In this document: piece after piece, positions 428 through 18,663 of the stretch
Layout: every line of letters begins with the position of its first letter
How positions within the stretch are numbered: position 1 is the stretch's first letter
IMG/VR virus record: IMGVR_UViG_3300029448_000456
Coordinates: 1 to 23,442 of that record
From: a virus
DNA: 23,442 nt
Direction: 5' to 3' (one strand)
The notes under the pieces: model-generated
The model's input: the letters and a program-made list of their open reading frames with translations, nothing else
The model's database searches: none
Told to the model about the DNA's origin: nothing
Translations under genes and position numbers: made by a program

Positions 428-1032
428 GTCACCGTCCTTTTTATTGTTGCAGCGTTGGCTAGAAATCCAGAAAACAAATCAAGATCGATAGGCTTCCCAT
501 CTTCTACATGTCTTTTAATAACTGATTTAAGAGAGGGAGGAGGTACATGAACCTTCCTCTTTGGATAAAAACCCTTCTCCTCCAGGATACCAACGACATC
601 TCCTGCAAGATTATCTTCACCCATACCAAAAGTAACGATCACATCGTTCTTTATTTTATCTCCATAACCATTCTCACGAAGCCAAGAAAAACATTGCTCA
701 CGTTTTGCAACGCATTCACGCCTTTCTCCTTCAGTCATCTTATCATTCAACGAGGGTATCGATGCACTTACCACCGTCCTTCGTCCAACACTAAGACCTT
801 TAAGTTTAATGCCCTCAGTTTCTCCCATTTCATCCATAAGATTCGGTATGGTTTCCATCTCGAGCTGATGCTTCTCTTTTTTCTTCTCACTTAACTCACT
901 CTCTAACTTCGCAATGTCGTCATTAATTTGATCCACCCGGACAGCCAGCTGGCTTAAAGACTTCATTCCTTCTACACTCACGTTCTTTAAAGCATCTGCC
1001 TTATCAAACATGTCTTCAAAAATATCATTCAT
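424..1032 (-). CDS. Conserved phage protein with N-terminal coiled coil, function unknown
   Basis: This 202-residue protein is read from ATG at 1032, chosen over an upstream in-frame start at 1068 because AGAGGA lies about eight bases before it. Residues about 28-65 are a heptad-like, lysine/glutamate-rich coiled coil (LESELSEKKKEKHQLEME). The middle holds the segment CFSWLRENGYGDKIKNDVIV followed by FGMGEDN, and the end has PPSLKSVIKRHVEDG. This arrangement (coiled coil, a WLREnGhGdlIKN core, then a putative ATP/DNA-independent C-terminal helix) matches a family common beside replication genes of T7-like and related podoviruses; no biochemical role is known to me. It overlaps the next leftward gene by ATGA, which argues for co-translation. 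Confidence 0.85.
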   Translation of the reverse strand: MNDIFEDMFDKADALKNVSVEGMKSLSQLAVRVDQINDDIAKLESELSEKKKEKHQLEMETIPNLMDEMGETEGIKLKGLSVGRRTVVSASIPSLNDKMTEGERRECVAKREQCFSWLRENGYGDKIKNDVIVTFGMGEDNLAGDVVGILEEKGFYPKRKVHVPPPSLKSVIKRHVEDGKPIDLDLFSGFLANAATIKRTVT

Positions 1033-1057
1033 AAGTATGTCCTCTTCAGAATTGTGA

Positions 1058-1086
1058 TTGACACACAAGTTTGCATGTCGTAAAAA
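1058..1086 (+). promoter_or_regulatory. Candidate sigma70-type promoter for the helicase gene
   Basis: TTGACA at 1058-1063 is a perfect -35 match. A 17-base spacer leads to TAAAAA at 1081-1086, a 4/6 match to the -10 consensus. Transcription would start about ten bases before a good ribosome site (AAAGGGAG) that serves the ATG at 1107. The site lies in the 74-base gap between divergent genes. Confidence 0.45.
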
Positions 1087-1106
1087 GACTATAAAGGGAG
1101 AACTGG

Positions 1107-2576
1107 ATGACTGTCAACTACAAATTTAAAACTATACCATATAAACATCAACAGACTGCATTGGACAAATGTGGAGACAATAAATGTTTTGGTTTGTTTA
1201 TGGAAATGGGTACTGGTAAGTCAAAGGTTTTAATAGATAATCTTGGGATGTTATTTTGCAAAGGTGAGGTAAACTTTGCTCTAATTATAGCACCAAAGGG
1301 GGTATATAGAAATTGGGTTGAGAAAGAAATACCGCAACATCTATCCGATAGCGTACCATACAGGGTGATTCGCTGGGTATCTAGTGCCAACAAAAAACAA
1401 ACAGAAGAAATGAGGTCCGTAAAGGATACGTTCTCCGGCCTTACTATCTTTGTTATGAATGTCGAAGCCTTCTCCACACTCAAAGGAAAGAATGCCGGAG
1501 AATGGATGGCAAAGAATTATGGACCGCACGGCATGATTGTTGTTGACGAATCAACTTCGATTAAAAACCACAAGGCTAAACGAACCAAGAGCCTCATTAA
1601 GATAGCTGAAAGTTTTGATTATACTAGAATACTAACAGGATCTCCAGTAACAAACTCACCTTTAGATATTTATGCACAGACCGAGTTCCTTAGACCTGGG
1701 CTCTTGGGTTTTGATTCGTATTGGGCATTCCAGGCACGGTATGCAGTCACGCAAAATGTAAAAATGGGGGCACATTCTTTCACTCAGATCAGAGGGTATC
1801 GAAACTTGGACGATCTGCAATGGAGACTTGATAAGTTTTCATACCGTGTTCTTAAGAAAGATTGTTTGGATCTGCCTGAGAAAACTTTTACTTCACGGTA
1901 TGTTACATTAAGTGACAAGCAACATGATTGGTATCAAAGAATTAAACGAGAAGCTATGATCCTACTTGACAACGGCGATCTTGTGACAGCCCCGGCAGTC
2001 ATTACACAGATGCTTCGATTGCAACAAATACTTTCCGGTCATATTAAGACAGATGATGGTGACGTTGTATCCATACCAACTAAAAGACTTGAGGCCGTCA
2101 CCGATATTCTAGATGAGAGCAGTAGCAAGGCTATTATATGGTCCCGGTTTAGGCACGACATTGTATCTATTACAAGTGAGCTCAATAAAAAGTATGAGAC
2201 AGGTAGTGCCGCAGCTTATTTCGGGGATACATCTGACGATGAACGCAATAGAATTGTAAGAGATTTTCAAGATCCTAAATCAAAGCTGCGATATCTAATT
2301 GGCAATCCATCAACAGCGGGTTACGGCTTGACTTTAACAGAGGCTAACCTTGTGATATATTATGCTAATGACTTTAACCTAGCTACTCGAATGCAAAGTG
2401 AAGACCGAGCTCACAGAATTGGTCAGAACAACCCGGTTACTTATGTTGATCTCATATGTGAGGGTACGATAGACGAAAAAATAGTTAGTGCATTGCAAGC
2501 TAAGATAGATATCAGTGCCAAGGTATTAGGAGAAGAGGTACGAGAATGGCTAAATCTAAAACCAACCCGAAGCTAG
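1107..2576 (+). CDS. SNF2-family (superfamily 2) phage DNA helicase/translocase
   Basis: This 489-residue protein has the ordered motifs of an SF2 SNF2-like ATPase: a Q-like YKHQQTAL near residue 12, Walker A MEMGTGKSK at 32-40, a DExx box MIVVDEST at 143-150, motif III LTGSP at 176-180, and C-terminal motif V-VI with GYGLTLTEA and QSEDRAHRIGQ at 430-440 carrying the arginine fingers. Family knowledge says such proteins use ATP to move along duplex DNA; in phages they sit in replication or recombination modules. The length is near the usual size for the minimal phage version, with no extra DNA-binding or nuclease domain. It opens a short rightward unit and overlaps the next gene by 31 bases. 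The exact substrate (fork, recombination intermediate, transcription complex) cannot be read from sequence. Confidence 0.93.
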   Translation: MTVNYKFKTIPYKHQQTALDKCGDNKCFGLFMEMGTGKSKVLIDNLGMLFCKGEVNFALIIAPKGVYRNWVEKEIPQHLSDSVPYRVIRWVSSANKKQTEEMRSVKDTFSGLTIFVMNVEAFSTLKGKNAGEWMAKNYGPHGMIVVDESTSIKNHKAKRTKSLIKIAESFDYTRILTGSPVTNSPLDIYAQTEFLRPGLLGFDSYWAFQARYAVTQNVKMGAHSFTQIRGYRNLDDLQWRLDKFSYRVLKKDCLDLPEKTFTSRYVTLSDKQHDWYQRIKREAMILLDNGDLVTAPAVITQMLRLQQILSGHIKTDDGDVVSIPTKRLEAVTDILDESSSKAIIWSRFRHDIVSITSELNKKYETGSAAAYFGDTSDDERNRIVRDFQDPKSKLRYLIGNPSTAGYGLTLTEANLVIYYANDFNLATRMQSEDRAHRIGQNNPVTYVDLICEGTIDEKIVSALQAKIDISAKVLGEEVREWLNLKPTRS

Positions 2577-2803
2577 ACACCCCGGCAGCGATAGAAATCA
2601 TGGCTGAATATAGACGTGGGCTTTGGCACCTAGGTAATGCAAGCAGAGAGCTGGCTGATGTTACAGGATTAGACGAAGAGATCGCTGGTTTATTATTAAA
2701 AGATATGAAACGTCACAACGTCACACAGATCAGAGGCTATAGCAAAGAGCCCGAAAGATTAAGAAAAGGAAAGATCGGTACGCCTTATGAGCCAAAAAAA
2801 TAG
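2546..2803 (+). CDS. Small protein of unknown function following the helicase
   Basis: The 85-residue product starts at ATG 2546 inside the 3' end of the helicase gene, with AGAGG seven bases upstream, so the pair is almost certainly co-expressed. The sequence is charged and predicted mostly helical; residues about 40-60 (DVTGLDEEIAGLLLKDMKRH) resemble a short helix-turn-helix or UBA-like segment, and the C-terminus is basic (KEPERLRKGKIG). I do not recognise the family. A helicase accessory or DNA-binding role is only suggested by the overlap. The TAG stop falls inside the stem of a terminator. Confidence 0.75.
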   Translation: MAKSKTNPKLDTPAAIEIMAEYRRGLWHLGNASRELADVTGLDEEIAGLLLKDMKRHNVTQIRGYSKEPERLRKGKIGTPYEPKK

Positions 2804-2821
2804 GGACCGTTGTCCCTATTT
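2798..2821. terminator. Hairpin terminator between convergent units
   Basis: AAATAGGGAC, a four-base loop CGTT, then GTCCCTATTT form a perfect 10-bp stem. Seven A residues flank it on the left (2794-2800), giving a U-run for leftward transcripts; the rightward side ends in AUUUAAG, a weak U-run. It lies between the rightward helicase unit and the leftward methyltransferase, so a two-way terminator is the simplest reading. Confidence 0.75.
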
Positions 2822-2862
2822 AAGTTTGCCTGGGAGGCTAAACATGAGGCGATGTTTCCTCA

Positions 2863-3411
2863 CTATAACAACCGACCATTTGAAAGTCTACCATAAAAAG
2901 AAGCATACGCTACTCTGTTATATTTATCAAAATAATACCAACAACAATTATCTTTTCCGGTGCTTTCAGAATCAGGTATCCACTTAACCCGACCAACACT
3001 AACAATCTTTTTTAAATAAGGCAGATAGTCAGCGGCCTGTTTGGTGTGCATCCAATCAGCATCAAACAGCAACCATGTTGGTAACAACTGAATGCAATGC
3101 AGAATTAAAGGGTGCAGTATCTTTCGATCCCAAGGTGGATTAGTAATAATTAAATCAGCATTTAAAAACTGCATAGCATCAAGTTTAAATACATCAAGCT
3201 CTAGTATGTTCTTGCGTCTTGGCTCAATGTCCGATTGAAATATGCATTTCATATTGTTCTTTTCTAGATGATCCACAAGAGTACCGTCCCCGGCACATGG
3301 TTCAACAAAGAACTCTTTCTCTGATAAATGTGGTAGGAGGGGTTTGACTGCTTGAAAAGGTGTGGGATAGAAGTCTCTTTCTACCCGCTCAAAATTAGAT
3401 CGCTTTCCCAT
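2863..3411 (-). CDS. Small DNA adenine-methyltransferase-like protein
   Basis: The 182-residue protein has FYPTP at 14-18, an S-adenosylmethionine-binding motif I FVEPCAGDGTL at 35-45, an acidic motif II (SDIEPRR at 60-66) and the catalytic motif IV IITNPPWD at 88-95. NPPW is typical of N6-adenine or N4-cytosine amino-methyltransferases. At 182 residues it lacks an obvious target-recognition domain, so it may be a minimal phage enzyme that protects DNA from host restriction; that role is inference. It is the last gene of the leftward block, overlaps the preceding gene by 17 bases, and has only a distant Shine-Dalgarno (AAAGGA about 15 bases away), suggesting coupling. An inactive or RNA-directed enzyme cannot be excluded. 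Confidence 0.8.
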   Translation of the reverse strand: MGKRSNFERVERDFYPTPFQAVKPLLPHLSEKEFFVEPCAGDGTLVDHLEKNNMKCIFQSDIEPRRKNILELDVFKLDAMQFLNADLIITNPPWDRKILHPLILHCIQLLPTWLLFDADWMHTKQAADYLPYLKKIVSVGRVKWIPDSESTGKDNCCWYYFDKYNRVAYASFYGRLSNGRLL

Positions 3412-4345: not shown

Positions 4346-4544
4346 TGTCTTCTTCAACGTGTAAAAACTTTATGCTTGGAGTGTCCTTACGCAACGCATG
4401 GTACTCAAGTTGCACCTTGGCAGAGTTAATCATCTTCCCTGCTATATTTGCCATCTCGCTTGCGTCCTTGGAGTTTAGTTCACCATTGGACAATCCTTCA
4501 AAAGCGATTGCAAGTTGGGTTCTTAATTCTACTACATTTTTCAT
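4338..4544 (-). CDS. Small conserved phage protein, helical
   Basis: The 68-residue product has the pattern LSNGELNSKDASEMANIAGK, then MINSAKVQLEYHALRK, ending in an acidic tail. The same arrangement of an acidic turn, an A/N-rich helix and KVQLEYxxLR occurs in many short phage proteins of unknown function. Its ATG overlaps the TGA of the upstream repeat protein (ATGA at 4541-4544), and its stop overlaps the zinc-ribbon frame. No catalytic motif is visible. Confidence 0.8.
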   Translation of the reverse strand: MKNVVELRTQLAIAFEGLSNGELNSKDASEMANIAGKMINSAKVQLEYHALRKDTPSIKFLHVEEDIA

Positions 4545-4960
4545 TTTTGGTTCTCCCTTTTTATAAACCGGTTGATTTTAATTAATTCTCTCTTTGCCTC
4601 AATCAATTCTTGAGGTATGTCTTTAGGAGTTAGATTGCTCTTCTCAATTATAAACCTAACAACATAATAATCCGTCAAATTTTCTGCATCTCGTTTTCTC
4701 CTTTCTGATAGTTTTTCTTTGTTTGCTTGGTTATATTTTTTCGCTCGCTTTCTTTCTTTCTCTCTGTTTTCTTCCCTATACTTTTTTTCTTTTTCTAATA
4801 TTATTTCTTTGTTTGCTTCTCTATATTTTTTCGCTCGCTTGCTTTCTTTTTCTTTGTTTTCTTCTCTATACTTTTTGTTTTGTTCTAATAGTTTTTCTTT
4901 GTTTGATTTGTAATATTTTTTTCTTCGCTCTTTCCTTCTTATTGGACACGCATAAGGCAT
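4541..4960 (-). CDS. Lysine/glutamate-rich repeat protein, paralogue B
   Basis: The 139-residue protein starts MPYACPIRRKERRKKYY and continues with about five units of roughly 14-15 residues of the form KKYREANKEKxxEKE, giving a long, highly charged helix. A C-terminal module of about 45 residues follows (LTDYYVVRFIIEKSNL, then TPKDIPQELIEAKRELIK). The same two-part design is in the neighbouring gene, so the two are tandem paralogues. The C-terminal module resembles one found at the end of phage proteins that carry a short CxxC/R-K-rich N-terminus; no activity is known to me. GAGGAG precedes the start, which overlaps the upstream stop as TAATG. Confidence 0.8.
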   Translation of the reverse strand: MPYACPIRRKERRKKYYKSNKEKLLEQNKKYREENKEKESKRAKKYREANKEIILEKEKKYREENREKERKRAKKYNQANKEKLSERRKRDAENLTDYYVVRFIIEKSNLTPKDIPQELIEAKRELIKINRFIKRENQK

Positions 4961-5451
4961 TACGTCTCCTCTCTTATAAGCCGTCTAATTTTTAATAATT
5001 CTCTCTCTGCCTCAATCAATCCTTGAGGTATGTCTTTAAAAGTTAAATTAGTGTTCTGAATTAAAAGAGTTTTAATATAGCTATCACTTAACTCTTTCCT
5101 ACATTTTTTAAATTTCTCTCTTAATTTTACTCTGTTTTCCTCTCTATATTTTTTACAATTCATTAATAGTTTTTCTTTGTTTGCTTCGTAATATTTTTTC
5201 TCTCGCTCCTTTATTTTTTCTTTGTTTGTTTCGGCATATTTTTTAACTCGTTTTTTGTATCTTTCTTTATTTTCTTGATACCATTTTCTCTGTTGTTCCT
5301 TTATTTCTTCTTTGTTTGCTTCGGAATATTTTTTAACTCGCTCACTGTTTTCTTGATACCATTTTCTCTGTAGCTCCTTTATTTTTTCTTTGTTTGCTTC
5401 GTAATATTTTTTATTGTACTCTCTTTTTTTTTCTTTATCCCTATGTGGCAT
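4960..5451 (-). CDS. Lysine/glutamate-rich repeat protein, paralogue A
   Basis: Read from ATG 5451 (163 residues), which has GGAGG about eight bases upstream and overlaps the endolysin stop as TAATG. After a basic start (MPHRDKEKKREYNKK) it has about seven repeats of 11-15 residues, alternating KKYYEANKEKIKE and RKWYQENKER types. The C-terminal module (LSDSYIKTLLIQNTNL, then FKDIPQGLIEAERELLK) is clearly related to that of the next gene. The repeats predict one extended, charged helix or coiled coil. Copy number and repeat type differ between the paralogues, pointing to expansion within each gene after duplication. Function unknown. Confidence 0.82.
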   Translation of the reverse strand: MPHRDKEKKREYNKKYYEANKEKIKELQRKWYQENSERVKKYSEANKEEIKEQQRKWYQENKERYKKRVKKYAETNKEKIKEREKKYYEANKEKLLMNCKKYREENRVKLREKFKKCRKELSDSYIKTLLIQNTNLTFKDIPQGLIEAERELLKIRRLIREET

Positions 5452-5954
5452 TACTCTTCCTCCACCTTCATGCATTGATCCATAGTATAAACGTGATTAA
5501 CCTCGTTCTCACAAATCAACTGTGCAAAGTTCTCGGGCCTCGGTACTGGATCAGAAATAACCTTACGATAAAACACATGGTCACCTATGACTTGCGTCTT
5601 TTGAAAAACCTCCGACCAATACGGCTCGACAGATGTAGAATGATAATGCGTTACCTCATCTCCAACCACGCTAATATAATCTCCATCTTGAATCATCATC
5701 TTGGCTATTGCCTTCGCCTTTAAAAATGAAAACATATCCTTGGGCTGATCCGACTTACCATCACACCACCATGAAAATTGACAGCTGTCCTCGTTCTCTT
5801 GAAGAACAACCTCACAGATATTATTAGGATAGTCTTGCGAGTTAACCCTATTAAGGGTTACCTCGGCTACTGCAATCTGACCGGCAATCGGCTCGGATCT
5901 TGCTTCAAAATAAATATTGCTTGCTAAACAAAGCAGGGCAGTTGACATAATCAT
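5451..5954 (-). CDS. SleB/CwlJ-type cell-wall hydrolase (candidate endolysin)
   Basis: The 167-residue protein matches the Hydrolase_2 (SleB) fold throughout: CLASNIYFEARSEP at 9-22 with the conserved catalytic-type Glu17, AGQIAVAEVTLNRV, CQFSWWCDG at 58-66, and THYHSTSVEPYW at 102-113. SleB enzymes cleave the glycan strands of peptidoglycan as lytic transglycosylases. There is no signal peptide or membrane segment, so release from the cell would need a holin. It fills the whole protein, as in soluble phage endolysins. AAAGGAGG lies four bases before the ATG at 5954; a second ATG two codons later is also possible. It overlaps the upstream gene by ATGA. A 49-residue membrane protein three genes upstream is a possible holin partner. 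Confidence 0.9.
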   Translation of the reverse strand: MIMSTALLCLASNIYFEARSEPIAGQIAVAEVTLNRVNSQDYPNNICEVVLQENEDSCQFSWWCDGKSDQPKDMFSFLKAKAIAKMMIQDGDYISVVGDEVTHYHSTSVEPYWSEVFQKTQVIGDHVFYRKVISDPVPRPENFAQLICENEVNHVYTMDQCMKVEEE

Positions 5955-8522: not shown

Positions 8523-8831
8523 TCACTCGTCATTCCACCCAGAAAACTCATCTCGGTAATCGACAGTCTCCATGTGGTCTCTATGAAATTCGCTAGTCTC
8601 TGGATCGTATCTTTCAGCCTCGTCGGAATAAAAAGCTAAGATATGTTCTTCGGGGTGCGATATAAAATTGCTCAACTCTTTTTTTAACTCGGCAATTTGC
8701 TCCTTTAACTCCCAAATTTGGTTCTCCACCTGAACGGCTCTCGGCTCTACTGAATTGATAACGTCATGTAGATCAACCCACTTTGTCTCGGCTCTATCAT
8801 ATGAAGTAAGATCATTATAATTAATAAACAT
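8523..8831 (-). CDS. Coiled-coil phage protein of unknown function (102 residues)
   Basis: The protein has a central coiled coil at about residues 33-58 (VENQIWELKEQIAELKKELS) and a charged, aromatic C-terminal half ending DYRDEFSGWNDE. The coiled coil predicts self-association or binding to a helical partner. The start overlaps the stop of the previous gene as TAATG. No enzymatic motif is visible. Confidence 0.72.
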   Translation of the reverse strand: MFINYNDLTSYDRAETKWVDLHDVINSVEPRAVQVENQIWELKEQIAELKKELSNFISHPEEHILAFYSDEAERYDPETSEFHRDHMETVDYRDEFSGWNDE

Positions 8832-9187
8832 TAGTTATCCCCTTGGTAATTTTTAATGGAGTACTCATAATAAGTACTTCTAGGGTCATCATCAGACAAC
8901 GTCTCTATGACATCTGGAGCAGACCCCCAGTTTGGTATAACAAGTGATTTTACTAAAACCGCATTAACCCTATTCTCTACAAATGATGAATTGCCATTTT
9001 TTGTCCAACCCCCTCTCGTGCATTTAATCCAAAATATTTTACCCTTAAACTTACCTTTGTTCTGACCTTTTACATACTTTGGAAGTTTAGAAACAACGTC
9101 TTCTCCAAACCACTTAACGGCAAGATCAAAACCAAAATCATGTTTTAACCAAGCTGACCTGTAGTCGTATTGTGAATATTGTGACAT
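8831..9187 (-). CDS. First gene of the leftward block, unknown function (118 residues)
   Basis: Read from ATG 9187 with AGGAGATATT upstream; a longer frame to 9274 would run into the promoter region and has no ribosome site. The protein opens with a Tyr/Ser-rich MSQYSQYDYRSAWLKHDFGF, then has a basic patch (KYVKGQNKGKFKGKIFWIK) and a strand-rich core (ENRVNAVLVKSLVI). The basic patch suggests nucleic-acid binding, but this is inference. As the promoter-proximal gene of about 22 it should be expressed first and most strongly. Confidence 0.75.
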   Translation of the reverse strand: MSQYSQYDYRSAWLKHDFGFDLAVKWFGEDVVSKLPKYVKGQNKGKFKGKIFWIKCTRGGWTKNGNSSFVENRVNAVLVKSLVIPNWGSAPDVIETLSDDDPRSTYYEYSIKNYQGDN

Positions 9188-9567
9188 AATATCTCCTAAT
9201 AAAAATAGAATCACTTTCTCTATGTACACAACTAAACCACAACTAGAACATATATGCAAGTGCTTTGGAGACAAAGTGACATATAACCCCCAGCCACAGA
9301 TTTTTTTTTTTTGAAAAATGAATCCGAATCTAGTGTCCCCACTGTCATCACTGTCCCCACTTCAATAAAATAAGGTACTTATAGACAAAAATCTGGAGAC
9401 AAAGTTGAGACACGGGGACAGTAATCTGGGTAAAACACCTATAATTGATGTTTTGTAAAAACACGTTTTTGGCGTTTGGGGACACTTCACTGTCCCCGAG
9501 GGTTGATAGAGACAGACCTTTTGACTATGCTTTGTCTCATAATTTTTAAACATTTGGAGATTTGCAA
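9188..9567. promoter_or_regulatory. Divergent control region with repeated GGRGACA motifs
   Basis: This 380-base gene-free stretch separates the leftward block from the small terminase gene. GGAGACA or GGGGACA occurs at 9267-9273, 9395-9401, 9414-9420 and 9478-9484, and the reverse complement TGTCCCC at 9334-9340, 9352-9358 and 9491-9497. The pair at 9478-9497 is a perfect 7-bp inverted repeat. The 12-mer TGGAGACAAAGT is present twice (9266-9277 and 9394-9405), and its GAGACAAA core again in reverse at 9531-9538, beside a possible -35 box TTGACT at 9521-9526. A 13-base T-run starts near 9300. No convincing open frame is present on either strand. Operators or phage-specific promoters are the likely explanation. 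Confidence 0.6.
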
Positions 9568-10107
9568 ATGCCTTCTATCAGGAAGAAAGTAGAAAAGAAA
9601 AATGACAGAAAACTTACTAATAGACAGATGACTTTTTCTCGCCACATTGTGGAGGGTATCTACTCGAATACAGAATGTGCGAGGAAGGCTGGCTACTCAC
9701 AAGACCTCGCTAATGAGTATGCTTCCCGACTTTTGAATGGTAGAGATTACCCACACGTCCTTGAGTACATCACCGAGCTAAGACAAGAGCGAGAGAGACG
9801 ATATGGGGTAACAACTATCGGTCAACTTGAACGACTGCATAAACTTTCTTTAAATGCTGAGGATGCTGGTCAATTTAGTGCCGCTATAAATGCTGAGAAG
9901 ATAAGATCAGCTCTTGGGGGTTTGACTATTGATAGGCGTGAAACAATTAATACGTTGGATCAACTTTCTAGAGATGAAATTACGGCTCGGTTGGTTGCGT
10001 TGCAAAAGCAGTACCCCCAAGCATTCGTTGTTGATGCAGAGTTTGAGGAGGTAAAGGATGCCCAGCGAGTCGAATTTCTGGAAGCAGATAAAAAACAATC
10101 TGCCTAA
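9568..10107 (+). CDS. terS: Terminase small subunit
   Basis: The 179-residue protein has a basic N-terminus (RKKVEKKNDRK), then a Terminase_2-type helix-turn-helix region at about 16-50 (LTNRQMTFSRHIVEGIYSN, ECARKAGYS), and a helical oligomerisation region with YITELRQERERRYGV and LGGLTIDRRE. Small terminase subunits bind the packaging site on phage DNA as a ring and regulate the large subunit. ATG 9568 is chosen because GGAG lies eight bases upstream; a TTG two codons earlier is too close to it. The large subunit is 7 kb away, beyond a cassette on the opposite strand, an unusual separation. The next gene starts 50 bases before its stop. Confidence 0.85.
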   Translation: MPSIRKKVEKKNDRKLTNRQMTFSRHIVEGIYSNTECARKAGYSQDLANEYASRLLNGRDYPHVLEYITELRQERERRYGVTTIGQLERLHKLSLNAEDAGQFSAAINAEKIRSALGGLTIDRRETINTLDQLSRDEITARLVALQKQYPQAFVVDAEFEEVKDAQRVEFLEADKKQSA

Positions 10108-10474
10108 AGACTGCCTAGCAAATAGAATTGAATCGAAAGTCGGAGGGGGTGTTCCTGATGTCCATTTAGTTTTGGATGGTCTACCTTTTTGGATCGAATT
10201 AAAGACAACGAAAACCAATAAGGTAAATATTACTCCTCATCAAATTGCGTGGCACATGGCATATTCTGCGAAAAAGGGTAAAAGTTTTTACTTGGTAAAG
10301 CACCTCCCGACCAAGCACCTATTTTTGTTTGAGGGGCATCACGGCTCGGAACTCTTGCGTCTCGGCTGGGTGGTTTATAATGATAACATAGGTTCAAGGT
10401 TCGAGAACCTTGCGTCTCTGTTTGATGCCTTGCGAGCCAACTTGCGTCTTTACTTTGCGTCTTTGCTCGAGTGA
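10058..10474 (+). CDS. VRR-NUC domain nuclease
   Basis: The 138-residue protein is a stand-alone VRR-NUC (PD-(D/E)xK fold) nuclease. Glu25, the segment GGGVPDVHLVLDG with Asp34, the catalytic pair FWIELK (Glu47, Lys49), and HQIAWH at 61-66 appear in the family order. Such small enzymes cut branched DNA, including Holliday junctions, and in phages are linked to recombination or to clearing branches before packaging. It overlaps the small terminase gene by 50 bases, with GGAGG eight bases before the ATG, so the two are co-expressed. The last 40 residues (LLRLGWVVYND) are encoded by DNA that carries the repeat seen downstream and may be variable. Confidence 0.9.
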   Translation: MPSESNFWKQIKNNLPKDCLANRIESKVGGGVPDVHLVLDGLPFWIELKTTKTNKVNITPHQIAWHMAYSAKKGKSFYLVKHLPTKHLFLFEGHHGSELLRLGWVVYNDNIGSRFENLASLFDALRANLRLYFASLLE

Positions 10475-10525
10475 CTTGCGTCTCGGCTGGGGGGTTTTGC
10501 GTCTTGCGTCTTCGCTGGGGGGTTT
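10355..10525. repeat. TTGCGTC repeat cluster
   Basis: TTGCGTC occurs seven times in 156 bases: at 10355, 10410, 10442, 10455, 10476, 10497 and 10504. Three copies belong to a longer 22-base unit, TTGCGTCTCGGCTGGG plus kGGTTT, at 10355-10376, 10476-10497 and 10504-10525, differing at one to three bases. The first lies in the nuclease gene, where it encodes LRLGWVV; the last two lie after its stop codon. Confidence 0.9.
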
Positions 10526-10536
10526 AGAATCTTGGC

Positions 10537-10564
10537 AAAAAAAATGCCCGACTCAAGGTCGGGC
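10537..10564 (-). terminator. Strong rho-independent terminator for the leftward cassette
   Basis: GCCCGAC, a five-base loop and GTCGGGC form a GC-rich 7-bp stem at 10546-10564. Read leftward it is followed by ATTTTTTTT. It lies just past the last gene of the 10582-11958 cassette and should stop that transcript before it runs into the nuclease gene. For rightward transcripts the U-run is weak. Confidence 0.88.
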
Positions 10565-10581
10565 TAGTTTGGAATCAACTC

Positions 10582-10749
10582 TTACTTTTTCTCCTGTGCT
10601 TTCATCAAGGCTTCATTGGTTCGCTCATGTAATTTTTCTAATTGTGCTTTTAGATAACCTTCATTAATATCCGTGCCATAACAATCCATTGCCGCTAACA
10701 CATGAAAGTATTGAGCCTCAGTCAGTTTTGGTGTGTAATATTTGGTCAT
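10582..10749 (-). CDS. Small helical phage protein (55 residues)
   Basis: Read from ATG 10749, with AGAGGAG upstream; a longer frame reaching 10833 overlaps the preceding gene and lacks a site. The product (MTKYYTPKLTEAQYFHVLAA, then NEGYLKAQLEKLHERTNEAL) is two helices with a short N-terminal tail. Not recognised. It is the last gene of the five-gene leftward cassette and is followed by the terminator. Confidence 0.7.
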   Translation of the reverse strand: MTKYYTPKLTEAQYFHVLAAMDCYGTDINEGYLKAQLEKLHERTNEALMKAQEKK

Positions 10750-10751
10750 TT

Positions 10752-10910
10752 TTAAAACTCCTCTACAGATGTCCAATTTTCTATGTGAATATCGTTTTCC
10801 ACTTCGTAAACTTTTTTTTCGGCAATCAAACAAGCTTGATTGAGATCTTCAGCTTCAACTTCAATAAATGCTTCATCGGTCACAAGGACTCTCAAATGAT
10901 ATTTTTTCAT
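10752..10910 (-). CDS. Small beta-alpha-beta protein (52 residues)
   Basis: The frame from ATG 10910 encodes a strand (KKYHLRVLVTDEAFIEVEAE), an alanine-bearing helix (DLNQACLIAEKKVYEVE) and a final strand (HIENWTSVEEF). This compact layout is common among short phage proteins of unknown role. The start overlaps the stop of the previous gene as ATGA, with GGAG ten bases before it, and the next gene starts two bases after its stop. Confidence 0.72.
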   Translation of the reverse strand: MKKYHLRVLVTDEAFIEVEAEDLNQACLIAEKKVYEVENDIHIENWTSVEEF

Positions 10911-11095
10911 TCTTTTAATACTCCTAAACTATTATAGTGTTCATATACTGAATCGTTAAAGTGCTGTTTTATATCTTCTATCATTAGTTTTTTATTGGTA
11001 CCGGTCGAATTGAACGCAACTGGATCAATTACGTTATACATATTATCCCACGTCGTAGTATCAATATCTAATGTTATAGATAGTTCAATTTTCAT
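10907..11095 (-). CDS. Small phage protein of unknown function (62 residues)
   Basis: The 62-residue protein begins with an alternating strand (MKIELSITLDIDTTTWDNMY) and ends in a helix (EDIKQHFNDSVYEHYNSL). AGGAG is about seven bases before the ATG. It overlaps the next leftward gene by ATGA. No motif or family is recognised. Confidence 0.7.
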   Translation of the reverse strand: MKIELSITLDIDTTTWDNMYNVIDPVAFNSTGTNKKLMIEDIKQHFNDSVYEHYNSLGVLKE

Positions 11096-11105
11096 TTCAA
11101 GACTC

Positions 11106-11228
11106 CTATATTATTATATTTGGGTAAACGTGCCATAACCAAACTGTAAAAGCACCAATTAGGAAGGCCGAAGCTAACGCCCCAACCCACCATAAAACGT
11201 ATATAAATTTTATAAGTTTACTATTCAT
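11106..11228 (-). CDS. Single-span membrane mini-protein (40 residues)
   Basis: From ATG 11228, preceded by AAAGGAG eight bases away, the frame encodes a short basic start (MNSKLIKF) and a long hydrophobic, tryptophan-rich span (IYVLWWVGALASAFLIGAF) ending HVYPNIII. A longer frame through 11360 is rejected as it overlaps the 238-residue gene. The product should be an inner-membrane peptide; whether it acts in lysis, exclusion or something else is unknown. Confidence 0.7.
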   Translation of the reverse strand: MNSKLIKFIYVLWWVGALASAFLIGAFTVWLWHVYPNIII

Positions 11229-11241
11229 TATCTCGACTCCT

Positions 11242-11958
11242 TTAATGTAAAACAATTGCAATTGATTTTTTGGTTTTAGTAGAAAGACCACCACATAACT
11301 TGCATTTATCACACGTCGCACGCCGCCCCGCCTCTTTCGATGCTGGACACAATACTTCATTATTTTTATCTAGATCGTTGACGCTATCCAGCGTTCTAAA
11401 TGTGCGTAGGTTTTTGGACCATAGGTCCAGGGCCTGTTCATGAGAGTCGGCTGATTGCATAGCGATTCCTGGCATGTATCCAATCTGATGAGTGTATGCC
11501 AGGTGGGAGTCGCATTCACTCAATAACTGGTCCCAAACGAAACTTGGAACGGCCCCGGGATCCCCATAAGTACCGACTCTAACGACTCGACCACGTCCTA
11601 ATTGTTTTCTAGATGCTGCATTGTTGGCCATAGGATAAACGCCTCTAATATAGGCGTTATAAGTAATAAGGACTCCTTGTCCTAAGTTAACATAACAAGA
11701 CCTATTTTTTGCAATTTTACGATTTGGGTCATTGTTAGCGATTCCCCGGTGTTTACAATTGCCGCAGATTGCGAAGTCATCACCAGTCTTACTAGCGAGT
11801 CTTGGGTCAATCCCATCTACTAAAATATAAGTTTGAATAACTCCCGGACCTTTCGAGTCGGTCGTTTTAGAATTGCTTTTAGTTAACGTCGCAATAACGA
11901 CAATGTCATATTCACTATTCAGAAGACTCCGACCTTTATAAATGATTCCACTTTTCAT
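11242..11958 (-). CDS. Cysteine-bearing phage protein, DUF7227-like
   Basis: This 238-residue protein has a strand-rich start, then GPGVIQTYILVDG, a first cysteine group FAICGNCKHRG at about 63-73, SCYVNLGQGVLITYNAYIRG, and a second group CDKCKLCGG near 216-224. The order of these elements matches a family seen in many phages as a gene of unknown function; I recall it as DUF7227, from memory. The CxxC groups could bind zinc or an iron-sulfur centre. It is the first and largest gene of the cassette, with AAGGA and an AT-rich promoter region upstream. It lies head to head with the structural operon. Confidence 0.78.
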   Translation of the reverse strand: MKSGIIYKGRSLLNSEYDIVVIATLTKSNSKTTDSKGPGVIQTYILVDGIDPRLASKTGDDFAICGNCKHRGIANNDPNRKIAKNRSCYVNLGQGVLITYNAYIRGVYPMANNAASRKQLGRGRVVRVGTYGDPGAVPSFVWDQLLSECDSHLAYTHQIGYMPGIAMQSADSHEQALDLWSKNLRTFRTLDSVNDLDKNNEVLCPASKEAGRRATCDKCKLCGGLSTKTKKSIAIVLH

Positions 11959-12002
11959 TATTATTGATTCCTTTTTCTAATAAAAATCTTTTCGATGTAA
12001 TA

Positions 12003-12031
12003 ATTCTATAAAAAATCTTATGCAATTGCAA
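12003..12031 (-). promoter_or_regulatory. Candidate sigma70-type promoter for the leftward cassette
   Basis: On the minus strand TTGCAA (12031-12026) and TAGAAT (12008-12003) are separated by 17 bases. Both hexamers match the consensus well and the site lies 45 bases before the ATG at 11958. Confidence 0.5.
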
Positions 12032-12074
12032 TAGTAAAAACATAAGTAATACATATAATTTAAACAAGTATAAA

Positions 12075-12170
12075 CCGGCCCCGGTCCGGGGTTACTGATG
12101 CAATTTACTTTTAACGACGTGCCGCCGCTGCGGCCCCGGCCCCCCGAATCGTGCGTGCGTGCCGACAGGT
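12075..12170. other. GC-rich island in an AT-rich intergenic region
   Basis: Between the divergent genes at 11958 and 12313 the DNA turns abruptly GC-rich. CGGCCCCGG is repeated at 12076-12084 and 12131-12139; CCCCGGTCCGGGG at 12079-12091 is a near-palindrome; GCCGC, CGCT, GCGGC at 12121-12134 can form a hairpin; and GTGC is repeated three times at 12151-12162. No recognised gene lies here. The rest of the 354-base gap is AT-rich, with a promoter candidate on each side. Confidence 0.7.
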
Positions 12171-12183
12171 TTTGGTCTATAAT
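12154..12183 (+). promoter_or_regulatory. Candidate promoter of the structural operon
   Basis: TATAAT at 12178-12183 is a perfect -10 hexamer 130 bases before the ATG of the large virion gene. The matching -35 region falls in the GC-rich island and is poor (GTGCGT), so use of host sigma70 alone is uncertain; a phage activator may help. Confidence 0.4.
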
Positions 12184-12312
12184 GCTGGTAATATAAATTC
12201 ATTTGTGTATATTTTCATTGGGTCCCCTTTTGTGCCCCCAAAAAAATTAGCTATGTATTTTCATTTGGAAATGCTATATATGATTAGAGAGGATAAATTC
12301 AGGGGTAGTTTT

Positions 12313-15300
12313 ATGGCTTTGGACAACGCATCACCTACTATTTCACCACAGATAGCAGATTTACTGGTAAAGAAACATGGGTTCAAGATGCAAGAGAATA
12401 AGCTCTTAGGCCCTTCTGGCACATTAATCCCGGTTGCGATGCACGAGGGTGGTGTTGTTCATACTCATGGAGCTGGTGGTGAAGAGGTAAGAACCTTGGA
12501 TGAGGCTTCTGGTTATGGTGGTCAACAGTACACGGTAGATGATAAGGGTGCTTTTTCTGGTTTATACACGCCTCCTGCTCCTAGTGATGTAGGAATAGGA
12601 CCGAGTGCTGATTTTCGGTCTGCCCAAGCTGGGTATTTAGCTAATCAGGCTGCTCAAGAAGTTCCTGCTCCTCCTCCGCAGATGCAGACGGCGACTATGG
12701 CTCCTCCTACTTTTTCTACGGGCACTCCTTTATCTGCTCAAGCACCTCAAGCACCCACTTCTTTATCTGTGGCTCCAGCAGCTCCACCCCCGGCCCCTGG
12801 TCCTGGTGGTATAATAGCGACGGATGCTCGTGGTGGTATACTTCCCATAGCCCCTGATAGACCTCCCACGGATTTAGGTCCAAATCGATTTGCATTTGAT
12901 GACCCTAAGTTTGCAGGGTTTGTAGATTCTGATTTTTATAAATCAAGAATGGGACAGCCTGATATACAGGTTATAAGTACAGCCAATGACGGTACAGTGT
13001 TTTCAACAGGATTTATGGCAGATGCGTATAATAATTATCTTGCAAGTTTAGAGGGTGCGGCTCCAGTGGCTCCCCCTGCTCCAGAACAAACAACAGGGCA
13101 GCTAGAGGCCGCAATTGACGAAGCACGGGATTTGGATTTGGGGCCGGGCAATCGCATAAAAAATGGAGTAAGCGATCTCACGGGCATACGTTACAGTGGT
13201 GATAAACCTGCGTATGAGTACAAACTTCCTGACGGTACTATTGCGGTTAGGAAAGGAGGTTCTGTTAAAATTTACGACGAGGATATGAACAGAATACCTC
13301 TTAGAGATTATATGGCTGATATTGGTATTTCAAATCCTCTCTCTACGATACAAGGAGCGGATGGCTCTGGAAATAAACTGTTTAATGCTATTACAGGGCA
13401 AATTAGAGATAATGCAACCGAAGAAGTTTACGAGCAGTTTGGTGGTAAGGACAGTGAGCTTGTGTCTCAATATCTTAAAGATCAGGCTGCTGCTGCAAAA
13501 AGACGAGCGGATTCGGACGAGGCATCTGATGAGCGAATGTTTGGAACGATTGATACGGATATAGAGTCGGACACATTTGGTCAACGTGTTGGCGGTACGA
13601 TGGGTGCTCTTAACGAACAGGTTAAGAAGGAGGCTGACAGATTAGGGATTACCACGGACCAGTTCTACGGTTATGATGCAGCAGGAAACCCTGTTGAGGG
13701 AGGGTTAAGTTTTTCTGATAGAGCTGGCATGGCTGTACAAGATTTCAAGGAAGTATTTGACCCGTCCCTCGGTCCTCTGTTCCAGAACCCAGATGCGATG
13801 GACCCTGACAACGCAAGAAGTTTAGGTATTCTGGCCCCCACAGGAGCGATTACCTCGGACCCCGGTCCTATGCCTCGACCTGACAATCAGGGCTTAGACT
13901 TTGGTTCTTTGGGTATGATGACTCCTTATGGAGCGATAACATCAGAAGACCCAACGGGCAGCGATTTGATTGGAACGTATGACATGGTTCCAGGTGGAGG
14001 GTTGCTTTCGGGCGACGTTAATTTCGGGGATCTTGTTCCACAGGCTATTGCAGCGGAGTTGGGCCCTGGCGAAGAGTTGTTGTTTACTACGTCTGCTTCT
14101 ACTGGAAATACATTTGATGAGTTTTCGGCAGAGGACATAGATACATGGGCCAGGACTATCGTTGCTGAAGCTGGTGGTGAGTTGGACGCTGGTCAAATAG
14201 CGGCGGCGAATGTTATGTTGAACCGTTATAATGACCCTGCGTTTAATAAAGGGGGTATGTCTTTAACAGAGGTTTTAACGGCTCCAAAGCAGTTTTCGGC
14301 GTGGAATGACGTAACGGAGGGCGGAAATAATCCTCAAAACATTGATCCTACCAGCACGTCGTATCAAAAAGCGTTAGATGTTATTAGTGGTATTCTTAAT
14401 AAACAGATACCTGACAACACGGCTGGGGCAACGCATTATTGGAATGATTCTATTGCTAATCCTAGCTGGGGTGACGAGGAGTTATCCAAGCATCAGACTG
14501 GCGGTCTTAAAATAGGCAATCATACATTTGCTGGAAAGACGGAACAGGAACTTCTTGACGAGAGGTTTACTTTACCTACGGATTTATATTCTGGAACCGA
14601 GGCACAACCCGCTGGGTTTTTTGATAATCTTAGTCGATTTAATCCTTTTGGTGCAGCAGATGCAGCTACGATACCGTCTGACCAACTTCCTCCGGGGTAT
14701 GCGGAACAATTAGCACAATATGGTGCTGGTAAAATTCCTCCGGACATACCTCTTGGGCCAGAAGACTTTGCTCCTTATCCTGACGCTCAAACTACTTCTT
14801 TTGACAATATACCTAATATATTTGGTCCTATGTCAAATTATGCAAAAGGTTTGTTAACTGGAGTTCCTCAACAAGCAGAGCAGATGATCAGGGGACTTGG
14901 CCCTGGTTTTGATACTTATTTAAGTCAGTTTAATATAGCAGATCTTGCAGCAAATCCATTACTTACTATTGGTAAAGATCTTGCAGGTTTTGGAGCAACC
15001 AACGAAGAACAATTAAAAAACAGAGCCATATATGAAACTGTGTTTGGTGATGGACTTGGTGGAGAAGGTCTTCCTGTTACAAAGGCAACTGAGTTTGTAG
15101 GAGATGGTCTTGGCAGAGCAAATGACTGGCTTGATAGCGTTTTGTTTACAGAAGAGTATAAAAAACAAAAAGAAATAGCAGGTTTTGAATCTGGACGAGG
15201 CACTATTTACGAGCAGCTTGGTCAGATAGAAAGCACTACAGAGGATGCAGAAGGTCTTGCTGCAAAACTAGGCGAGGAACATGGCGGTCAAGCTATGGAT

Positions 15301-17196
15301 GTCGTAATGAGTGTTAATCCTTATACTATGGCATTGAGTACTGTTTTAAATATGTCTGAAGGTGTTCAAGGTGCAAAATTAGAAACAGAACAAAAAATTA
15401 ATTCTGCTTTTAACTCTGGGGAGTTACAGGACCTAGATATTTATAAAGAAGCGATAAAAATATATGATGATCCTGAGTTAGCAAAAACTGCTGTTATGAA
15501 TGTTGCTCTGGCTAACTCTATACCTTTGGTTGCTGGGTCTAATGCTCTTGATGCTCTTCCTTTTGGAAAAAAAATAAAAGGAACGTGGGGATTTCTATCA
15601 ACAAACTTGTTAGGAAAAATGCCTCTAGAAGCTGGTCAAGAGGTAACTCAATCAATGGCCGTTAATCAAGCCTTAAAAGAAATAGGCTTAGATATTAACC
15701 TTACAGATGACGTTGTTGGCACAGCTCTTACGGGATATCTTATGGGTCCTGGACCAACATCTGGTCAAGTTCAAAGTCTAATGAACCAAGGCCCTATTTC
15801 TGTTGGTGGTGCAACGGTTGATCCTAATGTTAACACCGCTAATCTGGGCGTAAATTTAGGTGACCCTACAACGGTAGAGCCCCCTCTTAGTATAGAACAA
15901 CTTACTTCATACGATACTGACGGAAATCCTGTGGTGCCTGTGTTAAATATGCCCGGTCAAGGTCCTGGTGTTTTTACTGCTTCTGATACAACTGCTCCTA
16001 ATGTTGATACCAGTAATTTAAATGTAAATCCGGGTGCCTCTGGAGGCGTAGACCAAGAAGCTATGGATGTTATTGCTAAAGTTGATGCTGGTGCTGTTCC
16101 TTTAATGATGACAAACAACTTAAAAAGAATTTTACAGAATAACAATATTTCCGTAGATGCAAACACAGATCCAGCAGAGGCGATTGCTGCTCTTAAAGCA
16201 AAAGTATCTTCTGCCCCTAGTGGAATAGCTTCTATTGACACGAGTAATTTAGGTATAAATTTAGGGCAACCTGGAACGGGAGGAATCAATAATATAAATA
16301 TTGGTATGACTTCTCCACCATCTATTTCTAGTCAGATATCTTCAGGATTTACACAACCCTATTTACCGGATGCAGGGTCAACACCCGTTAAGATTATAAC
16401 GACATCTCCTGTTAACATAGGAGGTCAGACTGTTCCTGCTGGACTTACTATTGATGTTTCTCCACAACAAGCATCTACTCTTGTTCAAGCAGGAGATGCG
16501 GCTCCTGTTATAGGAGATGCCCCTCAGCTGGTAGATCCAGACACTACTATTGAACAATCACTTTTCAATACGAGCGGTATGGAACAAGACGTGTATGATA
16601 CGTTTATTGATAAACCAGATACAACAGGAAGAGTTCCGATAAGGGATGTAGACACAGGTCGATTTACTCCAGCAACAACAACGGCTGTCCCAACTGGAAT
16701 ACTCAGCTTAGTGGACAAAGCAGCCAGTGGAGATGTAGCAGTTAAAACTAGTGATCCTACAACGTCTGTTGATCCAAGTACCGTTGTTGAGGAAGACCCG
16801 GTAATTGCTACAGCTATTGATCCAAATATAGCAACGGACACTGAAACTGAAACGGTTACTACGACTGATGCGGATACTACGACAACTACCGAAGTTGTTC
16901 CAAATATTCAAATAGAAACGGGACCAAAACTTGAAGAAGATGAGGAAGGCGAGGAAGTTGAAATTCCTGGACCACCACCTCCATCAGGCGACGATGACGA
17001 TGACGAACCCCCCTTCGAGTGCCCAGATGGATTTACCGCTGTTAAAGTAGACGGGCAATTTGTTTGTATGCCTGATGAAGAAGAGGACGATGGTGCAGGA
17101 ACCGTGATACAAAGAGTTCGTCCTCGTATTGGTCCTTACTATCAACCGCAAAGTGTTGCAGCATTAAGTGGATATACTCCTTATAGGCCAAGGTAA
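12313..17196 (+). CDS. Giant virion protein with embedded SleB cell-wall hydrolase domain
   Basis: Read from ATG 12313 behind AGGGG (1627 residues); an open frame to 12151 has no ribosome site and crosses the promoter. Residues 110-180 are proline/alanine-rich. Residues about 608-735 are a SleB-type peptidoglycan hydrolase (ARTIVAEAGGELDAGQIAAA with Glu619, PKQFSAWND, ATHYWND with His708). Residues about 830-1150 are helical with glycine-rich hydrophobic stretches (AANPLLTIGKDLAGFGATN, SIPLVAGSNALDALPFG) and an AGQEVTQ motif, as in phage internal or ejection proteins. Three repeats of NVDTSNLGVNLG type lie at 1170-1320. The C-terminus is Thr/Asp-rich, then PPPPSGDDDDDE, FECPDGF and a basic end. 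A DNA-ejection or wall-penetration protein is the best reading; tail fibre is less likely. It abuts the large terminase gene. Confidence 0.85.
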   Translation: MALDNASPTISPQIADLLVKKHGFKMQENKLLGPSGTLIPVAMHEGGVVHTHGAGGEEVRTLDEASGYGGQQYTVDDKGAFSGLYTPPAPSDVGIGPSADFRSAQAGYLANQAAQEVPAPPPQMQTATMAPPTFSTGTPLSAQAPQAPTSLSVAPAAPPPAPGPGGIIATDARGGILPIAPDRPPTDLGPNRFAFDDPKFAGFVDSDFYKSRMGQPDIQVISTANDGTVFSTGFMADAYNNYLASLEGAAPVAPPAPEQTTGQLEAAIDEARDLDLGPGNRIKNGVSDLTGIRYSGDKPAYEYKLPDGTIAVRKGGSVKIYDEDMNRIPLRDYMADIGISNPLSTIQGADGSGNKLFNAITGQIRDNATEEVYEQFGGKDSELVSQYLKDQAAAAKRRADSDEASDERMFGTIDTDIESDTFGQRVGGTMGALNEQVKKEADRLGITTDQFYGYDAAGNPVEGGLSFSDRAGMAVQDFKEVFDPSLGPLFQNPDAMDPDNARSLGILAPTGAITSDPGPMPRPDNQGLDFGSLGMMTPYGAITSEDPTGSDLIGTYDMVPGGGLLSGDVNFGDLVPQAIAAELGPGEELLFTTSASTGNTFDEFSAEDIDTWARTIVAEAGGELDAGQIAAANVMLNRYNDPAFNKGGMSLTEVLTAPKQFSAWNDVTEGGNNPQNIDPTSTSYQKALDVISGILNKQIPDNTAGATHYWNDSIANPSWGDEELSKHQTGGLKIGNHTFAGKTEQELLDERFTLPTDLYSGTEAQPAGFFDNLSRFNPFGAADAATIPSDQLPPGYAEQLAQYGAGKIPPDIPLGPEDFAPYPDAQTTSFDNIPNIFGPMSNYAKGLLTGVPQQAEQMIRGLGPGFDTYLSQFNIADLAANPLLTIGKDLAGFGATNEEQLKNRAIYETVFGDGLGGEGLPVTKATEFVGDGLGRANDWLDSVLFTEEYKKQKEIAGFESGRGTIYEQLGQIESTTEDAEGLAAKLGEEHGGQAMDVVMSVNPYTMALSTVLNMSEGVQGAKLETEQKINSAFNSGELQDLDIYKEAIKIYDDPELAKTAVMNVALANSIPLVAGSNALDALPFGKKIKGTWGFLSTNLLGKMPLEAGQEVTQSMAVNQALKEIGLDINLTDDVVGTALTGYLMGPGPTSGQVQSLMNQGPISVGGATVDPNVNTANLGVNLGDPTTVEPPLSIEQLTSYDTDGNPVVPVLNMPGQGPGVFTASDTTAPNVDTSNLNVNPGASGGVDQEAMDVIAKVDAGAVPLMMTNNLKRILQNNNISVDANTDPAEAIAALKAKVSSAPSGIASIDTSNLGINLGQPGTGGINNINIGMTSPPSISSQISSGFTQPYLPDAGSTPVKIITTSPVNIGGQTVPAGLTIDVSPQQASTLVQAGDAAPVIGDAPQLVDPDTTIEQSLFNTSGMEQDVYDTFIDKPDTTGRVPIRDVDTGRFTPATTTAVPTGILSLVDKAASGDVAVKTSDPTTSVDPSTVVEEDPVIATAIDPNIATDTETETVTTTDADTTTTTEVVPNIQIETGPKLEEDEEGEEVEIPGPPPPSGDDDDDEPPFECPDGFTAVKVDGQFVCMPDEEEDDGAGTVIQRVRPRIGPYYQPQSVAALSGYTPYRPR
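15820..16272 (+). repeat. Three diverged repeats coding for NVDTSNLGVNLG
   Basis: Within the giant virion gene, segments at 15820-15867, 15994-16038 and 16228-16272 encode VNTANLGVNLGDP, VDTSNLNVNPGAS and IDTSNLGINLGQP. They are spaced by about 175 and 235 bases and separated by unlike sequence, so this is a scattered linker motif rather than a tandem array. Confidence 0.75.
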
Positions 17197-18663
17197 ATGA
17201 ACTTACAAGCACTGCCCGAAGATGCGTTAAAAGAGATTTTAGCGTTAACACAAGCTAAAAAGAAACTGGATTTACGAGAACAGGCACAAGATAAGTTTAT
17301 GCCTTTTGCTCATCATGTGTATGAAAACTTTATTGAGGGCTCTCATCACCGTGTTATTGCAAAGAAACTAGAAGAAGTAGCAAGTGGTAAAATTAAACGT
17401 CTTATTATTAACATGCCTCCTCGTCATTCTAAGTCAGAATTTGCGTCATATTTAATGCCAGCGTGGTTTTTGGGACGCAATCCAAAGTTAAAAATTATTC
17501 AGGCTACTCACAATACGGAGCTTGCTGTTCGATTCGGTCGAAAAGTAAGAGATCTTATAGACGATCCGCAATATAAAGACATATTTCCCACAACTAATTT
17601 AAAAGAAGACAACAAAGGTGCCGGAAGATGGCAAACAGATAAGGGTGGAGAGTACTTTGCGGCTGGTGTTGGGGCGGCTGTAACGGGTCGTGGTGCTGAT
17701 TTGTTTGTAATTGATGACCCACACTCGGAACAAGACGCATTATCAGAGAGTGCCTTCGATCATGCGTATGAATGGTACACTTCTGGTCCACGTCAACGTC
17801 TTCAACCGGGCGGTTCTATCATAATTGTTATGACAAGATGGGGTAAAAAAGACTTGACAGGTAGATTATTGGCACAGCAGGGCGGTGATTCGTTTGCAGA
17901 CAAGTGGGAAGTGGTAGAATTTCCTGCAATCTTGCCGTCAGGCAAGGCTTTGTGGCCTGAGTTTTGGGAAAAAGACGCATTGTTGTCGATAAAAGCCTCT
18001 CTTCCTGTAGCAAAATGGTCAGCTCAGTGGCAACAGGACCCAACATCCACACAAGGGGCGATTGTGAAGAAAGAATGGTGGCAAATGTGGGAGAAAGAGG
18101 ACATACCCAAGTGCAAATACATTCTTCAGGCGTATGATACGGCGTTTTCCAAGAAAGAATCGGCAGATTATTCAGCAATTACAACGTGGGGCGTGTTTAA
18201 TCCAGATGAAGGGGGTCCGGATAACATTATATTGATGGATGCACGGCGTGGTCGGTGGAGTTTTCCTGAACTCAAGGAGGTTGCCTTTGATGAACACGAG
18301 TATTGGGAGCCTGATATGGTGCTTGTAGAGGCGAAAGCGACGGGTACACCCTTGATTGACGAGTTAAGACTGCGAGGTGTACCAGCATTAGGCTTTTCTC
18401 CAGGCAAGGGACGTGATAAGGTAACCCGAATGCATATGGTTGCACCGCTGTTTGAGGCTGGTGTGGTGTGGGCACCAGAGGACAAGAAGTTCTCTGATGA
18501 AGTAATTGAAGAAGTTACATCGTTTCCCAATGGTGACAATGATGACTTTTGTGATAGTATGACATTAGCCTTGATGAGATTTCGTCAGGGTGGATTTATA
18601 TCCCTTGAGGGGGAAGACGACATGAACGGTGATAGATACCTTAGAAAAAGGGAATACTATTAA
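17197..18663 (+). CDS. terL: Terminase large subunit
   Basis: The 488-residue protein has both enzyme halves of a packaging motor. The ATPase has Walker A MPPRHSKS at 73-80, Walker B LFVIDDPHS at 169-177 and coupling motif VMTRWG at 211-216. The RNase H-like nuclease has QAYDTAF with Asp314, VLVEAKATG with Glu378, and DDFCDS with Asp450/Asp453, the expected acidic triad. It cuts concatemeric phage DNA and drives it into the prohead through the portal. Length is typical. Its ATG directly follows the TAA of the giant virion gene, with AAGG nearby. The stop overlaps the next ATG as TAATG. The small subunit is far upstream, and the portal is the second gene downstream. Confidence 0.97.
   Translation: MNLQALPEDALKEILALTQAKKKLDLREQAQDKFMPFAHHVYENFIEGSHHRVIAKKLEEVASGKIKRLIINMPPRHSKSEFASYLMPAWFLGRNPKLKIIQATHNTELAVRFGRKVRDLIDDPQYKDIFPTTNLKEDNKGAGRWQTDKGGEYFAAGVGAAVTGRGADLFVIDDPHSEQDALSESAFDHAYEWYTSGPRQRLQPGGSIIIVMTRWGKKDLTGRLLAQQGGDSFADKWEVVEFPAILPSGKALWPEFWEKDALLSIKASLPVAKWSAQWQQDPTSTQGAIVKKEWWQMWEKEDIPKCKYILQAYDTAFSKKESADYSAITTWGVFNPDEGGPDNIILMDARRGRWSFPELKEVAFDEHEYWEPDMVLVEAKATGTPLIDELRLRGVPALGFSPGKGRDKVTRMHMVAPLFEAGVVWAPEDKKFSDEVIEEVTSFPNGDNDDFCDSMTLALMRFRQGGFISLEGEDDMNGDRYLRKREYY

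Follow-up and report, generated by a model that had tools for sequence, protein, structure and literature searches.

The array of short repeated sites described here, found in the genome of an uncultured marine podovirus-like phage, is probably a replication origin whose sites act as iterons for the phage's archaeo-eukaryotic (AEP) primase. The array lies in a 23.4-kb virus record (23,442 nucleotides, referred to in its entirety as the window), in the gap between a leftward and a rightward transcription unit at positions 9188-9567. The case for this reading, which is the best one for the data at hand, comes from relatives of the phage: the array keeps its layout among them, its motif changes from lineage to lineage, and the motif covaries with the C-terminal winged helix of the primase, strongly with the wing.

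The first gene of the leftward unit encodes a 118-aa orphan protein (8831-9187, minus strand), and the gene of the terminase small subunit, terS (9568-10107, plus strand; ATG at 9568; phrog_51, E 7e-13), lies directly downstream of the array. The window also carries the terminase large subunit gene, terL (17197-18663), and the portal gene (19561-22047). The terminases of Pelagibacter phage HTVC027P and marine phage 023Pt_psg01 share 58% identity with that of the window phage. About 7 kb (9568-17196) part terS from terL, and within this region lie a VRR-NUC-like gene, an opposite-strand phrog_2554 gene, and a giant gene (12151-17196) whose 1681-aa product contains a stretch that by eye resembles a SleB-type cell-wall hydrolase (TWARTIVAEAGGELDAGQIAAANVMLNRY...). 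An endolysin-family gene (phrog_938) is found apart from it at 5451-5954. Two adjacent minus-strand genes (4541-4960 and 4960-5475) encode paralogous, highly charged repeat proteins of the KKYREENKEKE... type that are probably coiled coils. At the left edge of the window, the replication module starts with Pam3_Gp34-like and DUF7307 genes (1-1068, minus strand), and a DNA helicase gene is found at 1107-2576 (plus strand; phrog_62, E 6e-122).

There are 12 copies of the motif GGRGACA in the window, where 4.5 would be expected, and none of 100 shuffles reached 12. Seven of the 12 copies lie in the gap and span 9267-9497, four of them forward (9267, 9395, 9414, and 9478) and three on the minus strand (9334, 9352, and 9491). 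The remaining five are all GGAGACA and are dispersed within genes. The largest cluster per 240 bp holds seven copies, compared with a maximum of three in 2000 dinucleotide-preserving shuffles. A preliminary description of this DNA had reported seven copies in about 230 bases, clustered far above chance, together with a perfect inverted pair and a repeated 12-mer, and all of this was borne out: the inverted repeat GGGGACA-N6-TGTCCCC is at 9478-9497, and the 12-mer TGGAGACAAAGT begins at 9266 and again at 9394.

The exact copies belong to a fuller unit of about 10 intergenic sites of the form TG-NNN-ACA, which consists of three tandem sites on each strand, outer sites, and a tract of 12 T, the pattern being completed by three or four degenerate copies (TGATGACA, TTGAGACA, ATGAGACA, and TAGAGACA). 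The core of the array is made of minus-strand sites at 9334, 9343, and 9352, spaced exactly 9 bp apart, and plus-strand sites at 9394, 9405, and 9413. Read on the minus strand, the first tandem triplet (9334-9359) is TGGGGACA, TGATGACA, TGGGGACA; the second (9394-9420, plus strand) is TGGAGACA, TTGAGACA, CGGGGACA; and the same triplets are present in relatives. A perfect inverted site pair lies at 9477-9484 (plus) and 9491-9498 (minus), and the outer sites are TGGAGACA at 9266-9273 (plus strand) and the two degenerate sites TAGAGACA at 9508-9515 (plus) and ATGAGACA at 9533-9540 (minus). The 12-T tract (9301-9312) is the longest A/T run of the window and a candidate DNA-unwinding element. In other words, the gap has the several short direct repeats in non-coding DNA that are expected of an iteron origin, and also an adjoining A/T-rich element at which the DNA may melt. 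Such elements are enriched in relatives as well, with A/T runs of at least 8 in 29 of 44 non-redundant array regions compared with 41 of 880 random stretches.

A TerS search of IMG/VR identified 437 relatives. In relatives with the same gene order, exact GGRGACA was nearly absent upstream of terS, and the preliminary description had proposed that its absence from the same gap would count against the array. The motif is indeed almost absent there, but the array is not: the same layout is present in the terS-upstream gaps with a different motif in each lineage (TGTTTACA, TGATTACA, TGAGTACA, TGAGGACA, TGGATACA, and others), and a test based on absence of the motif would therefore misfire. The lineage motifs are GAGACA, GAGTACA, GAGGACA, GTAAACA, GTAAATA, GTAAATC, GTAATCA, and GTAATAG; when read in a common orientation, with the minus-strand triplet first, sites of the closer group follow TG-NNN-ACA with a variable central triplet. 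All main copies within one array change in concert. Four relatives (L064, L007, L336, and L347) have switched inner triplets and outer sites with an older or different motif, as if they were mid-way in a concerted change. A strict scan for tandem-plus-inverted arrays, which misses the mixed GGG/GAG array of the window itself and that of L202, detected arrays at 60 of 80 terS loci, in none of 80 shuffled loci, and in 4 of 80 unrelated viral contigs. A blastn search of the 2-kb region against cultured phages gave no match, and a search of viral contigs for the 20-mer palindrome returned unrelated matches.

Which protein reads the sites? Two 36-kb contigs were compared gene by gene. They have near-identical TerS proteins and carry different motifs, GTAATCA in one (G001) and GTAAATC in the other (G002). 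Hardly any change separates their ribbon-helix-helix (RHH), AlpA-type, and cold-shock-like proteins, and in the 513-aa AEP primase most of the changes fall within the last 75 residues. In a sister pair (L389/L391), the wing and the motif are nearly the sole differences. Contigs carrying both an array and the primase were then gathered, with the phrog_62 helicase used to find such relatives. The primase of the window phage lies beyond the left edge of the window, starting about 460 bases past position 1, and was read from another contig (L429, 3488-5014) that is 98.2% identical to window positions 1-3026; it is separated from the array by 9 kb. The protein belongs to family phrog_21866 (E 1e-79), the domain of a relative matches PF22548, and it has the catalytic domain of an AEP primase with its acidic and histidine motifs, in which D75, D77, S104, and H108 are invariant across 100 primase sequences. 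The structure of the AEP domain matches CRISPR-associated Prim-Pol (CAPP, 7nqf etc.), S-2L PrimPol, and RepB'.

Further evidence came from a column scan that used no structural information. It covered 1292 variable columns of nine proteins (TerS, helicase, AlpA-type HTH, Gp34-like, DUF7307, RHH, cold-shock-like, VRR-nuclease, and primase) in 30 close relatives. The first letter of the central triplet was best explained by primase column 476 (G001 numbering), which accounted for 87% of the entropy (z 15.8; next column 8.1), and the third letter by primase column 486 in the same numbering (91%, z 9.1; next column 5.8). For the first letter, Asn goes with A, Ala or Ser with T, and His with G, with Lys or Arg going with G in a distant group. 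For the third letter, Thr goes with T and Asn, Lys, or Gln with G, a rule that fails in the distant group. Tree-aware independent pairs were counted on a tree built without the primase C-terminus. First-letter A was concordant with Asn in 8-9 of 10 pairs (p 0.004), first-letter T with Ala or Ser in 6 of 6 (p 0.03), and third-letter G with Asn, Gln, or Lys in 5-6 of 6 (p 0.03), and no pair was opposite in any of the three comparisons. The first-letter rule fits 42 of 46 phages; the exceptions are the window phage itself, which combines Asn473 with a G-first triplet, and L285, L271, and L453. The 42 include 6 of the 7 phages brought in once the rule had been set, a weak hold-out given that most of the seven come from the distant clade already sampled. 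The register and orientation of the motif were partly curated by hand, the orientation-aware automatic caller being unreliable and replaced by a hand check. For the first letter the hand-checked assignments and those of an earlier automatic caller agreed except in L271 and L453, and L342, which was unassignable, was left out. On the strength of these covariation data, the C-terminal domain of the primase is very probably the reader of the sites.

A structural model is consistent with this role. AlphaFold2 modelling with a 100-sequence alignment gave a pLDDT of 86 for the window phage primase, and the C-terminal domain modelled alone reached a pLDDT of 87 and a pTM of 0.77. The domain is predicted to fold as a winged helix, in which two helices are followed by a beta-hairpin wing with strands at 469-475 and 481-490. 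The covarying residues correspond to N473 and Q483 of the window phage primase, and judging from the strand limits rather than from coordinates, they would be opposite each other across the wing hairpin if the strands pair as modelled. Structural neighbours of the domain are modest (FOXC2, PadR, TcpK-oriT, and SCCmec Cch; Foldseek E 0.025 or worse, Z under 7), and all are generic winged helices among which no closer family could be named. The top Foldseek match is FOXC2, and the commonest motif, of the TGTTTACA class (for example in L206 and L238), is GTAAACA/TGTTTAC, the forkhead (FOX) consensus; this likeness is probably a coincidence.

How might such an array work? In the proposed model, the TG-NNN-ACA sites serve as iterons to which the AEP primase would attach through its C-terminal winged helix, thereby acting as an origin-binding initiator. 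The two head-to-head triplets would load the primase at the gap, and melting would start at the adjoining T tract. Residues 473 and 483 of the wing hairpin would read letters 1 and 3 of the central triplet, and small changes in the wing, together with a concerted change of all sites, could give close relatives different origins. The selective reason would probably be to prevent the origin of one phage from being used by co-infecting relatives or satellites. GC/TA skew gave no clear origin signal. The gap had earlier been described as a divergent control region with an array of protein-binding-type sites, which still stands, and as the expected position of a switch between accessory and late genes. 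An origin fits better than such a switch because the motif tracks the winged helix of a replication primase, with a side role in transcription being possible.

Positional evidence comes from cultured phages that have a primase of the same family (phrog_21866) and arrays with motifs of their own, and from rhizobial prophage-like elements. GCAACC arrays precede both the primase gene and terS in SH-Ab 15497, VLCpiS6a has two GTTCCA arrays at two unit starts, one of them before the primase gene, and Kokobel2 likewise has two arrays, including one before the primase gene. A GTGCCA array is present in 023Pt_psg01, and a TAGGAA array (11622-11770) lies directly before terS in the cultured pelagiphage HTVC023P. 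No array was detected by the strict scan in MW202510, nor in the stretches that it covered of DSL-LC04 (49 kb) and Pelagibacter phage HTVC027P (the first 30 kb). Two arrays per genome are present in cultured Acinetobacter, Klebsiella, and Providencia phages of this primase family, and one of the two precedes the primase gene; paired arrays are located at 20890-21072 and 43030-43240 in L466, at 1630-1893 and 25350-25445 in L468, and at 14183-14391 and 39186-39285 in L471. In the rhizobial elements an array of another motif lies immediately behind the primase gene (primase 9956-11509 and array 11516-11674 in L494; 9986-12247 and 12258-12438 in L511), an arrangement of initiator plus iterons that is the best positional clue to an origin.

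The main rival model accepts the same reader. In it, binding of the winged helix to the array would serve chiefly to regulate transcription, by way of an operator or autoregulation that couples replication to early and late expression, with replication starting elsewhere or only incidentally at the array. The initiator proteins of iteron plasmids commonly double as transcriptional repressors, and arrays do stand where units begin, in the divergent gap here and at both unit starts of SH-Ab 15497 and of VLCpiS6a; operators would also account for the paired arrays of cultured relatives, both of which precede a transcription unit. However, the two rhizobial arrays lie behind the primase gene, the putative reader is a replication enzyme, and both the A/T tract and the arrangement of tandem iterons resemble those of an origin. 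This model is therefore unlikely, though it deserves more weight than any other alternative.

Much less probable is an operator array for a phage repressor or RHH regulator, the motif of which would change under immunity pressure in the manner of stoperators. The many short asymmetric sites suit such a model, and so do motif classes that differ between relatives, as they do in heteroimmune phages. However, the candidate regulators do not change with the motif. The RHH protein, of a type which the preliminary description had put forward as a binder, is 95% identical and has the same DNA-facing strand across phages with different motifs, and the AlpA-type HTH and cold-shock-like proteins are near-identical across such phages, which argues against all three as determinants of specificity. 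None of their columns equals the primase signal in the column scan; in other words, among the proteins tested, specificity does not follow a regulator. Nor was a repressor or integrase module seen in the window. The 118-residue promoter-proximal protein, also suggested earlier as a binder, fared no better, as no relatives of it were found and it varies even between phages in which the array is kept. Another candidate, a large and divergent protein encoded next to the polymerase in G001, G003, and G006, was discounted as the product of a structural gene. The AlpA/excisionase-like HTH protein is 99% identical in G001 and G002 despite their differing array motifs, suggesting that its DNA target is elsewhere; a small gene of this type lies between the primase and a UvrD-like helicase in L203 (9818-10018). 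Least credible of all is a cos or pac packaging site bound by the neighbouring TerS: the array does stand directly before terS here and in most relatives, but TerS is excluded as the reader because phages with identical TerS carry different motifs (L030/L038 and L050/L056), no TerS column tracks the motif in the scan, site specificity does not follow TerS as it would at such a site, and the rhizobial arrays adjoin the primase rather than a recognised terS.

The origin reading has parallels in known systems. Like the iteron origins of plasmids and phage lambda, in which a Rep or O protein acts on direct repeats next to an AT-rich region, the present array has tandem short sites in a gap, an A/T tract, and a putative cognate initiator with a DNA-binding domain. 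It differs in that the presumed binder is the primase itself, the sites are 8-9 bp long and form two head-to-head triplets, and the motif turns over among near-identical phages. In geminiviruses, iteron letters and matching Rep residues change together among relatives. The covariation of iterons and initiator is the same here, although the rolling-circle Rep of those ssDNA viruses is an unrelated protein. Closer in protein family are the mobile-element AEP primases PolpTN2 and PrimQH, which also have a primase domain followed by a C-terminal winged helix suggested to perhaps recognise origins (PMC5862659); their origin sites were not identified in that study, whereas sites and a residue-base code are proposed here for phrog_21866. 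Priming by the primase-polymerase of phage NrS-1, likewise a marine phage AEP enzyme, depends on an 8-nt recognition sequence in its own genome (PMC7102993), but that sequence is present in two copies per genome and the enzyme is a single fused polymerase-helicase, in contrast to the arrays of about 10 sites and the winged helix described here. A search of the open-access literature, subscription papers being outside its scope, found no description of such arrays or of such a code.

Origin choice by phages with AEP primases was largely untested before, and the winged helix was merely suspected of being an origin reader (PMC5862659). The present analysis adds specific sites in phage genomes, some of them from cultured phages, as well as a named domain and a candidate two-residue code. 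It may be, and we regard the chances as evenly balanced, that these phages and elements represent a widespread family of AEP-primase replicons (in marine, Acinetobacter, and Klebsiella phages and rhizobial prophage-like elements) with a readable wing code, in which one or two hairpin residues re-target the initiator and the whole array follows. Near-identical phages living together would then have mutually orthogonal origins, probably escaping cross-replication or hijack by relatives and satellites. An origin specificity that evolves faster than the neighbouring terS gene would be a sign that co-infecting phages or satellites are in strong conflict over the use of origins.
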